A stretch of DNA of 64,000 nucleotides, from contig NZ_AP027736.1 in the NCBI RefSeq assembly GCF_030296675.1, forward strand, positions 434,001-498,000, given 5' to 3'. Below the pieces are notes generated by a model. The model was not told where the DNA came from. It saw nothing but the letters and a program-made list of their open reading frames with translations, and searched no databases. This DNA is from Demequina sediminis. GTDB taxonomy: Bacteria > Actinomycetota > Actinomycetes > Actinomycetales > Demequinaceae. Of this stretch, positions 46,964 through 51,331 are shown one piece after another; position 1 is the stretch's first letter, and each line of letters begins with the position of its first letter. A program made the position numbers and the translations under genes.

Positions 46964-48131
46964 CTACAAAGACAGCGCGGCCGCGTCGCGCAGCCTGCCG
47001 AGCGCGAACGCGGTCTCGAGGACGTGGGCGTCGCGCGTGGAGAGCACGTCCCAACCTGTGAGGTCCGCGACCTTGCGCAGCCGGTAGCGCACGGTGTTGG
47101 CGTGGACGAACATGGTGCGGCTCGCGAGTTCGAGCGAGCGGCCGCAGTCCAGAAACGTCGCGACCGTCTCCTTGAGCGAGCCTCCTGCCGAGGCGATGGG
47201 GTCGTAGGCGACGGCGATGAGGCGCTCGGCCGCCGAGGAGTCGCCAATCAGCACGCGTTCGGGGAGGAGGTCGTCCGCGTTGACCGGGCGCGGGGCGAGG
47301 GCCCACGCGGGGGCTGCGCTCGCGCCGTTGATCGCGGCGCGCGTGGAGCGGGCCACCTCGACGAGCGTGATCGCCGGCGGACCGACGACGACCGGGCCGC
47401 TGCCGAAGGTGGGCAGCAGCGCCTTGGTGACCTCGTCGAGCGCGGAATCGGAACGGGCGATTACCACCAGGTCCTCGCCGTGGATGCCGGCGAGCGCTCC
47501 GTGCGCCGCGCGGCGGATCGTGCGCCGCAACTCCGCAGACTGGACCTCGCCCAGCGGGCCTTCCGTGCGTCCGACCATGACAAGCGTGGGGCCGGGCTTC
47601 CAGCCGAGCGCGGCGGCGCGCGAGGAGATCGTCGTCGACCTGCCCGCGCACCAGCGCATCGACCACGAGCGCCTCGAGCCGGGCGTCCCACGCGCCGCGT
47701 GACTCCGCGGCACGCGCGTAGACCTCGGCGGCGGAGAAGGCGATCTCGCGCGAGTACCTCAGGATCGACTCGCGCAGGTGGGCCTCGGCTCCGGGGGCGG
47801 CGAACTCGTCGGAGTGGTTCTCGACGATCGCGACGAAGGTGCGCACGATCGTCAGCGTGTGCTGGAGCGAGATCGAGCGGGTGAGCTCGGGAGGAGCGGA
47901 CGCGAACATCTCGAGGGCGCCGCGGTGGCCGGCGGAGGTATCGGCGAAGTACGTGACGAACGACGCGATGCCCGCCTGCGCCACCGTGCCCACCCACGAG
48001 CGCTCCTGCGCGGGCAGCTCCCTGAACCATGGGTACTCGGAGTCGAGGGTCTTCAGTGCGATCGTGGCGAGGCGGCCGGTGCCGGCCCGGAGGCGGCGGA
48101 GGGTCTCGGCGCGCATCTCGGGGGTGACCAT
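46964..48131 (-). CDS. PucR/CdaR-type regulator, FasR-like (frameshifted in this sequence)
   Basis: About 389 residues when repaired. N-terminal helical and GGDEF-like regions and a C-terminal PucR HTH with TMFVHANTVRYRLRKVADLTGW. Directly upstream of fabD, the place of FasR, an activator of fatty-acid synthesis in streptomycetes and mycobacteria. The lesion near 47608-47622 needs two bases: a GC pair lost in a GCGCGC tract; repair gives DLLARAAALGWKPGPTLVMVG. ATG 6 bases after TAGCCT (48143-48138, minus). Confidence 0.88.
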
Positions 48132-48148
48132 TCACTCAGGCTAGTGCG

Positions 48149-48171
48149 CGATTGTAGGGAGAGCACAATCG
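48149..48171. promoter_or_regulatory. Inverted repeat upstream of the fasR-like promoter
   Basis: CGATTGT (48149-48155) and ACAATCG (48165-48171), 9 bases apart, lie just upstream of the minus-strand -10 (48143-48138), about where the -35 would be. A candidate operator, perhaps for autoregulation. Confidence 0.45.
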
Positions 48172-48264
48172 GTGCCCTGGGCGAGACGGTGGCTCGGGTG
48201 TGGCGGCGGTGCGGTGAGGCGGGCGCGGTTGGTGGAATCCGACATGAGGGCGGGGTGGGTGGAC

Positions 48265-48392
48265 TCTCGCGGCTCCGCCACACGGGTGGACTCTCGCGGC
48301 TCCGCCACACGCGCGTGCTCTCGCGGCTCCGCCACACGAACGCTGTCTCGCGGCTCCGCCACACGAACGCTGTCTCGCGGCTCCGCCACACG
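48265..48392. repeat. Five tandem 27-bp repeats, with inverted copies downstream
   Basis: The 20-base core TCTCGCGGCTCCGCCACACG starts at 48265, 48292, 48319, 48346 and 48373, a perfect 27-bp period. The 7-base spacers vary (GGTGGAC, CGCGTGC, AACGCTG twice). The reverse complement CGTGTGGCGGAGCC recurs at 48467-48480 and 48512-48525, so the array can fold back on these. A palindrome CCATGGG-TGT-CCCATGG lies between, at 48400-48416. No gene is called in 48132-48616; a minus-strand frame over the array is only a nonapeptide repeat. Confidence 0.85.
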
Positions 48393-48616
48393 CAATCGAC
48401 CATGGGTGTCCCATGGCGCGCCTCAACCTGCCAGAAGCGACCATGAGTGCCCCACTGTGCATTCGGCGTGTGGCGGAGCCGTGGGGTGGGGGCCGCGGCT
48501 GGCGCGCTCGGCGTGTGGCGGAGCCGCGCCAGGCCTTGCACGTCAACCACGACGAAGGGCCGGGACCCCACCCGAAGGCGAGGATCCCGGCCCTGAGCCG
48601 TGATCGAATGCGCGGC

Positions 48617-51331
48617 TCAGGCGTCGCCGCCCGCGTTGCCCGACGTGCCCTTGCGGACGTCGTGGAGTTCGTAGCGACGGATCGCCTCGGCGAACGTGCC
48701 GGGCTGGACCTCACCACGGCGCTCGAGCAGCTGGAGCACGCGCACCGCGGTCGAGGGGCCGTCGATGTGGAAGAAACGGCGCGCAGCGGCGCGGGTGTCG
48801 GAGAAGCCGAAGCCGTCCGCACCGAGCGTCGCGTAGTCGCCGGGGACCCACGCCCGGATCTGGTCGGCCACCAGGTGGTCGTAGTCCGAGGTCGCGACGA
48901 ACGGTCCCGCTGCTCCCTGCAGCTTCTGCGTGAGGTACGGCGTGCGGAAGCCCTCCTCGGGGCGGAGGAAGTTAGCCTCCTCGCACGCGAGTGCCTCGCG
49001 ACGTAGCTCGTTCCACGAGGTCACGGACCAGATGGCGGCCCGGACTCCGTAGTCGCGCAGCAACAGCGCCTGAGCCTCATAGGCCCACGGCACTCCGACG
49101 CCGGAGGCGAGGATCTGCGCCTCCGGGCCGTGGCCCTCGGGAGCGGCAGAGACGCGGTGGATGCCCTTGAGGATTCCCTCGACGTCCACGTCCTCGGGCT
49201 CGGCCGGCTGGACGATCGGCTCGTTGTAGACCGTGAGGTAGTACATGACGTTCCGGTCGCGTCCCGAGTCCGGTCCGTACCAGCGCTCGAGCGCGTCCTT
49301 GACGATGTGCCTGATCTCGTAGCCGTACGCGGGGTCGTACTGGACCACCGCGGTGTTGGTGCCCGCGATCAGCGGCGAGTGGCCGTCGCCGTGCTGGAGA
49401 CCCTCGCCGGCCAGCGTCGTGCGGCCTGCGGTCGCACCCACGATGAAGCCGCGCGTGAGCTGGTCGCCCGCCGCCCAAAACTGGTCGCCGGTGCGCTGGA
49501 AGCCGAACATCGAGTAGAAGATGTAGAACGGCACCAGGGGCTCGCCGTGCGTCGCATACGACGTGCCGACGGCCTGGAACGCGGCAGCGGATCCGGCCTC
49601 GTTGATTCCCGTGTGCATGATCTGGCCCGACTCGGACTCCTTGTAGGAGAGCATGAGCTCGCGGTCGACCGGCAGGTAGTTCTGTCCCTGCGTGTTGAAG
49701 ATCCTGGCGCTCGGGAAGATCGCGTCGAGGCCGAACGTGCGCGCCTCATCGGGGATGATCGGCACCAGCCGGTGGCCGAACTCCTTGTCGCGCACCAGGT
49801 CCTTGAACAGGCGCACGAAGGCCATCGTGGTGGCGACCTCCTGCTTGCCCGATCCCTTGGCGAGCAGCTCGTATGCCTTGTCGCCGGGGAGGCTGATCTC
49901 CTTGCGGTTGTCGCGACGCTCGGGCACGAAGCCGCCGAGCTCCTGGCGACGCTTCAGCATGTACTGAATGGCCGGGTCGTCGAAGCCGGGGTGGTAGTAC
50001 GGCGGGTGGTACGGGTCGGCCTCGAGCTGCTCGTCGGTGAACGGGATGTCGAAGGTGTCGCGCAGCACCTTGAGGTCGGCCGCCGCGAGCTTCTTCATCT
50101 GGTGCGTCGAGTTGCGCGCCGCGAAGTTGGCACCCAGTCCGTAGCCCTTGATGGTCTTCGCGAGGATGACCGTCGGCTTGCCGTTCTTCTGGGTGGTGGC
50201 GCGAGCGTACGCGGCGTACAGCTTGCGGTAGTCGTGTCCGCCGCGCTTGAGCGCCCAGATCTCGTCGTCGGTCATGTCCTTGACGAGCTCCTTGGCGCGC
50301 GGGTCGCCGCCAAAGAACTGGTCGCGGATGAACGCTCCGGACTCGGCGCGGAAGGTCTGGAAGTCGCCGTCCGGCACGGTGTTCATGAGGTTGACGAGAG
50401 CGCCGTCCTCATCGCGGGCGAGCAGCGGGTCCCAGTTGCGGCCCCACACGACCTTGAGCACGTTCCAGCCGGCGCCGCGGAAGAACGCCTCCAGCTCCTG
50501 GATGATCTTGCCGTTGCCGCGCACCGGTCCGTCGAGGCGCTGCAGGTTGCAGTTGACCACGAACGTGAGGTTGTCGAGCTGCTGGTTCGCGGCGAGCTGG
50601 AGCATGCCGCGGCTCTCGGGCTCGTCCATCTCGCCGTCGCCGAGGAACGCCCACACGTGCTGCTGTGAGGTGTCCTTGATGCCTCGCAGGTGCAGGTAGC
50701 GGTTGGTCCAGGCCTGGTAGATGGCCGATGCCGGGCCGAGTCCCATGGACACGGTGGGGAACTCCCACAGGTCGGGCATGAGACGCGGGTGCGGGTACGA
50801 GGACAGGCCGCGGCCGAGGCCGGACTTCTCCTGGCGGAACGAGTCGAGGTCCTCCTCGCTGAAGCGGCCCTCGACATAGCCACGGGCGTATACGCCGGGC
50901 GCGGCGTGGCCCTGGTAGTAGACCTGGTCGCCGCCGCCGGGGTGGTCCTTGCCGCGGAAGAAGTGGTTGAGGCCCACCTCATACAGGGTCGCCACGGAGG
51001 CGTACGAGGAGATGTGTCCGCCCACGCCCTTGCCGCCCGCCTGCGCGCGCGTCACCATGACGGCGGCGTTCCAGCGGATCCAGCCGCGGTAGCGGCGCTC
51101 GATCTCCTCGTCGCCGGGGAAGTCGGGCTCGTCGTCGGCGTGAATGGTGTTGACGTACGGCGTGTTCAGGCTGAGCGGGACGCTCAACTGCTTCTTGGCC
51201 GCGTGCTCCACGAGCTGGTCCACGATGTACTCTGCGCGGCTTTCCCCGCCCGCATCGATGAGGCCGTCGAGCGACTCGAGCCACTCCTGCGTCTCGCCTG
51301 GGTCCTTGTCAACCTCGCCGTGATGTGCCAC
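48617..51331 (-). CDS. aceE: Pyruvate dehydrogenase E1 component, homodimeric
   Basis: Decarboxylates pyruvate and acetylates E2 lipoyl groups, feeding acetyl-CoA to the adjacent fatty-acid operon. 904 residues, usual for the E. coli-like AceE used by actinobacteria. TPP/Mg motif [12 protein letters not shown] (about 230), [25 protein letters not shown]-free N-terminus, and [19 protein letters not shown] (about 640-660). GTG at 51331 follows GGAAGG by 7 bases. Intact despite its length. Confidence 0.96.

Follow-up and report, generated by a model that had tools for sequence, protein, structure and literature searches.

An enlarged copy of a modular intergenic repeat element between aceE and a PucR-type regulator gene in Demequina sediminis

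The gap between a FasR-like regulator gene and aceE in the D. sediminis genome holds a striking array of direct and inverted repeats, which raises the question of whether the array serves the two genes beside it or belongs to something more widespread. A preliminary description, made from the sequence alone, had proposed that a binding platform or an RNA element might connect the fatty-acid regulator with pyruvate dehydrogenase or, alternatively, that the array may be a variable-number tandem repeat (VNTR). The array is presented here within a window of 64,000 nucleotides (contig NZ_AP027736.1, positions 434,001 to 498,000), to which coordinates refer unless stated otherwise. Comparison with the rest of the genome shows that the array represents an enlarged copy of a modular repeat element of about 106 bases, which is scattered in intergenic regions.

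Anatomy of the array and of the repeat element

Five identical 20-mers (TCTCGCGGCTCCGCCACACG) start at positions 48265, 48292, 48319, 48346 and 48373, with a period of exactly 27 bp, and together span 48265 to 48392. The 7-base spacers between them read, in order, GGTGGAC, CGCGTGC, AACGCTG and AACGCTG. With a TRF score of 176, compared to 82 for the runner-up, this is the strongest tandem repeat of the window. A palindrome (CCATGGGtgtCCCATGG) follows at 48400-48416, and two inverted copies of the 14-base core lie at 48467-48480 and 48512-48525; the TCTC portion of the 20-mer is missing from both, and they pair with the direct copies over 15-18 complementary bases, according to the pair. All of these components had been described correctly, as had the strong and potentially branched folding of the region (z -5.4 for RNA folding of the array, z -5.3 for DNA folding of the inner unit), which is explained by the presence of the inverted copies. 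Spacers of 7 bases, two of the four identical, and inverted copies likewise bear out the earlier view that this is not a CRISPR array, in which unique spacers of about 25-40 bp are expected. The seven exact matches to the core in the window all lie inside the array; with up to two mismatches there are 10 matches versus 3.2 expected, a number reached by none of 100 shuffles.

Read against the other copies in the genome, the site resolves into a single rigid element of 106 bp (48377-48482) with extra arms. On the forward strand, the element begins with an inner left arm, X (GCGGCTCCGCCACACG; 48377..48392), at a fixed gap from the next box that is common to 10 other copies. Two core boxes follow on the same strand, Y1 (TCGACCATGGGTGTCCCATG; 48396..48415) and, 41 bp from it, Y2 (GCGACCATGAGTGCCCCACT; 48437..48456), and the unit is closed by an inner right arm, X', which is an inverted X on the reverse strand (48467..48482). 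The small palindrome of the preliminary description corresponds to the Y1 box and is missing from most other Y boxes. Beyond the 106-bp unit, the site carries four additional left arms (48265..48365, forward strand), which are the first four exact 20-mers of the 27-bp series, and a second, outer right arm (48512..48527, reverse strand).

The layout of this Y-Y type is therefore arm X(16)-3-Y(20)-21-Y(20)-10-inverted arm X'(16). A search for Y-Y pairs within 40-42 bp identified 25 in the genome, spaced 40-41 bp; 15 of them possess both arms, 10 possess neither, and none has a single arm. Whole elements are oriented X+ ... X-. Counted from the CACAC/GTGTG edge, the left gap of the 15 two-armed units is either 4 (n=11) or 14 (n=4), and the right gap is 10-11. 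Left arms placed one helical turn apart (4 or 14 bp) are suggestive of double-stranded recognition, in a set of 15 copies that possibly share common descent. A sister type, likewise rigid but 118 bp long, contains a different core, Z (GGCGTGTCGNCGGCGTGTCGC), and has the layout X1(16)-5-X2(16)-6-Z(21)-38-X'(16). Among 64 copies from seven species, the 38-nt gap is kept to within 1 nt in about nine-tenths; the stretch that fills it is barely conserved between species, and in D. subtropica it varies between copies as well.

By inspection, the sole self-complementary segment of the X arm is GCGG-CT-CCGC, with a 2-nt loop. The match between X1 and X' inside elements was not higher than under shuffled pairing in D. 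pelophila, D. sediminis or D. subtropica (in D. pelophila 13.65 versus 13.46, with 1070 of 5000 shuffles as high), and RNAalifold detected no common structure over seven Demequina genomes; a hairpin kept by compensatory change was therefore rejected. In two other Demequina genomes (G004 and G060) and across genera, arms match within an element and differ between elements, such that the inverted repeat as such is still favoured.

Distribution in the genome and position relative to genes

The 14-base core occurs in 114 exact copies in the 2,705,399-bp assembly (65 forward, 49 reverse; none for the reversed control), at least three of them counted twice because the contig ends appear to overlap, so it is not specific to this locus. 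Near these ends at least 10.6 kb is repeated (10,613 bp at 99.97% identity; L041 20391-31000 and L038 2653000-2663600), and the offset fits a circular overlap of about 73 kb that was left untrimmed. About ten elements lie within about 40 kb (G000:C1 1661915-1703000), and by hand count copies are more numerous in the half of the chromosome around dnaA (2073304).

Among 36 genomes of the genus, only that of D. subtropica (G011) shares the D. sediminis arm, in 33 copies. Most Demequina contain few or no copies of the element, and the distribution is patchy, with large gaps in copy number between related species. A search for the Y core with two mismatches exceeded its control in D. sediminis (G000), D. 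pelophila (G022), G002, G023, G059 and others of the genus; across the order, matches outside the genus were no better than the control. No plasmid relatives of the region were found, and a literature search on the motif and on Demequina repeats yielded nothing about this element. The curated covariance models of Rfam gave no match, and a known RNA family was accordingly rejected as its identity.

These distributions bear on the proposal that the copies are chromosomal binding sites of a nucleoid or segregation protein, arising by selection. Rigid spacing and phasing by one helical turn would suit such sites, as would the apparent excess in the dnaA half (2.07 Mb). However, that excess is a hand count that includes one 40-kb cluster, and patchiness within the genus, with copy numbers that differ widely between related species, speaks against a chromosomal role of this kind, which we regard as distinctly unlikely.

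Examination of the gaps in which elements lie reveals a clear preference. With genes called by a simple codon model, and with the other gaps of the same stretches around element copies serving as comparison, 23 of 47 element gaps are convergent, compared to 29 of 217 (enriched 6-fold, p 4e-7), and only two are divergent, compared to 66 (depleted 10-fold, p 7e-5); the remaining 22 and 122, respectively, are co-directional. The median distance of elements from a stop codon is 46.5 bp, and that from a start is 114.5 bp. Both types, Y-Y and Z, sit behind genes and often fill most of the gap.

The two genes at this locus are both on the reverse strand. The regulator (46967..48131) is a FasR-like protein of the PucR/CdaR family with GGDEF_2 and HTH_30 domains; it reads in two frames near 47629-47637, which may reflect a real frameshift or an assembly error, and its relative in G036 is intact (389 aa). 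The aceE gene (48617..51331; start uncertain, possibly 51439) codes for a homodimeric pyruvate dehydrogenase E1 (TIGR00759). We read 30 Demequina aceE loci, and the relatives used for comparison share 76-83% aceE identity. The gap between the two genes is 485 bp here, compared to about 170-207 bp, with no element, in three relatives of the same gene order (G036, G003 and G012). A terminator-like hairpin behind aceE (GGGCCGGGATCC...GGGGTCCCGGCCC; 48557..48593, reverse strand) lies outside the element, and most relatives have a comparable hairpin after aceE. An operator-like palindrome upstream of the regulator (CGATTGTGCTCTCCCTACAATCG; 48149..48171, no strand assigned) is also outside the element, and by eye it has comparable counterparts in G036 and G012.

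A local cis-regulator of the fatty-acid regulator and aceE, whether as an operator platform or as an RNA element, would accord with the position of the array between both genes and with its good folding. The same element, however, occurs between dozens of unrelated gene pairs, is absent from the three relatives that share this gene order, and is depleted from divergent gaps, where promoter faces promoter; moreover, the regulator's own operator-like palindrome is outside the array. Scatter of this kind, with no link to promoters and no conservation at the locus, is the outcome that the preliminary description had itself set against its proposal, and it leaves local regulation highly improbable. 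We infer that the array has no specific local role and is no switch for either gene, and it should not be taken as a regulator of aceE or of fatty-acid genes. In the general sense, a sequence-specific binding platform is possible for the family as a whole.

A second functional proposal is that the element is a host-functional 3'-end element (a bidirectional terminator, a stabiliser of mRNA 3' ends or a gyrase site for supercoil relief) selected behind genes. Enrichment in convergent gaps, nearness to stop codons, the filling of most of the gap, strong hairpin potential and sites common to different species (see below) would all fit. Yet aceE already has a terminator-like hairpin of its own beyond the array, and a search of 48100-48700 for a stem-loop followed by a T run, a type of terminator distinct from possible T-less ones, found no match. 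In addition, copies are few or lacking in most Demequina, and the arm covariation within D. pelophila elements is no more than chance. On balance, we judge a host function of this sort to be unlikely.

The outer arms of the array find a parallel at other sites. Other short tandem repeats occur in 26 of 94 element flanks, compared to 20 of 217 stretches of other intergenic DNA (p 8e-5), an excess to which degenerate arm copies may contribute. Tandem growth thus seems to be a habit of element sites, and the 27-bp array to be one outcome of it. The closely related species G011 and G020 differ by the presence of a single 26-bp arm unit, and the idea of a VNTR is accordingly borne out for the outer copies. 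At base resolution, three sites aligned between these two species included none that was empty for the whole element.

Arms and cores in other genomes

D. pelophila possesses an arm of its own (TCACNNNTCCACAC) in 93 copies (none for the reversed control), which surrounds both Z cores and Y-type cores of altered sequence (GCGACCA...TACCCAT); each element type thus carries the arm of its own species. A Z variant in G060 and G004 is enclosed by still other arms, of which G004 has two families. By hand count, four of eight element sites of G006, G023 and G026 are also occupied in D. sediminis, between the same gene pairs but with different arms, which suggests either that the sites were inherited while their arms changed in concert, or that certain sites are preferred for insertion.

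The Z core extends beyond the genus. An exact scan for its 22-base form returned many Actinomycetota among the matches listed, and in a sample of the class it was found in 4 of 394 other genomes. Z has inverted arms of unrelated sequence on both sides in Agromyces, Georgenia, Actinomyces/Schaalia, Arthrobacter and Nocardioides, and these arms surpass 99% of mismatched-flank controls in strength. No such arms accompany Z in Microbacterium or at three Propionibacteriales-type sites. In Microbacterium (L123, L127, L140, L150, L174, L194), a single Z occupies what is apparently a common site; the gene downstream of it (about 388-405 aa) looks transporter-like by eye, and here the motif is possibly a regulator site. 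That Z may be a binding site of a known regulator, e.g., WhiA (GACAC), is treated as a lead only.

Six viral contigs also contain the Z core. In four of them (L263-L265 and L267, about 48% G+C), the exact GC-rich motif is in an intergenic gap, and in the three contigs inspected for genes a conserved gene, whose product begins MDKPTLKELTGRNHVSYSSFDTYQQCGEKF, starts about 50-70 nt downstream of it. The viral contig L266 (4744-5160) shows direct and inverted copies of GGCGTGTCGC amid GTGTCTAC/GTAGACAC repeats.

Taken together, we consider it probable that the site is a copy of a dispersed, non-autonomous, REPIN/BIME-like family of Demequina repeats whose arms have grown locally in tandem. Each unit consists of a core, which is either a single Z or two Y boxes at a distance of 41 bp, enclosed by X and its inverted counterpart X'. 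The fixed spacings and the 4/14-bp left arms would reflect recognition of double-stranded DNA by a putative arm-binding protein that would be responsible for spreading the unit, the arms in each species being matched to it. The outer 27-bp arm copies would have arisen later by local tandem duplication, presumably through slippage. The persistence of copies mainly behind genes may be due to harmful effects of insertions at other positions, or else to the palindrome forming a barrier at 3' ends that is tolerated there and has a mild, terminator-like effect. Several observations count against this reading: searches and inspection yielded no Y1 transposase in 41 Demequina genomes, no target-site duplication or autonomous copy, and no site empty of a whole element at base resolution; the co-occupied sites with different arms are not predicted by simple fresh insertion; and the 3'-end bias would be explained equally well by a host function, e.g., bidirectional termination.

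Relation to known repeat families

Short repeats of palindromic type for which no transposase is known constitute an open problem, of which the CGTC REPs, likewise devoid of a dedicated transposase, are a published case (PMC3733652). The Y1_Tnp domain of the REP-associated transposase (RAYT) was found in none of 41 Demequina genomes, although positive controls were detected, and a RAYT-driven REP was rejected as such. Tentatively, and with more doubt than assent, we propose a RAYT-independent class of palindromic mobile repeat, characterized by Z or Y-Y cores in rigid frames, by concerted, genome-wide divergence of the arms as species split, and by a putative arm-binding protein; the class would include the Z cores between unrelated arms in the genera named above and those in phage contigs. 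A single arm set per species for two cores, placed with a precision of 1-2 bases, provides a defined DNA probe for the missing protein.

With terminal inverted repeats of 16 bp on units of 106 and 118 bp, the element resembles a MITE (about 100-400 bp); neither a target-site duplication nor an autonomous copy was seen in the copies and the one species pair inspected. In BOX elements the layout is also modular, with an internal box in variable number. In the Demequina element it is the arms that vary in number, and lineage and sequence differ. Like BOX, RUP and SPRITE of Streptococcus pneumoniae, which have been interpreted as parasitic, the element is an interspersed intergenic repeat with strong secondary structure, mostly limited to one species and its close relatives (PMC3049150).

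Like REPINs, which are inverted doublets of a short REP repeat in extragenic space, the element forms short inverted pairs in scattered copies, with a spacer of fixed length and weak conservation and with some tandem arrays (Bertels and Rainey 2011, PMC3116915). Unlike in REPINs, its arm is no hairpin ending in a tetranucleotide (X has no GTAG or CGTC tag), its cores are larger and defined (Y-Y or Z), and its arms show no clear compensatory changes. It shares with BIMEs and the tagged REP families a preference for convergent and co-directional gaps near 3' ends, rarely divergent ones, and the opposed arrangement of units (PMC3733652), but it differs in sequence and size, and possesses two interchangeable cores per arm set and species-specific arms. 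We have therefore filed it as a variant of interspersed palindromic repeats rather than as a REP, since it is associated neither with a RAYT nor with a tagged palindrome. What is new is the rigid frame, the species-specific arms shared by both cores, and the recurrence of the Z core between unrelated arms elsewhere in the Actinomycetota.
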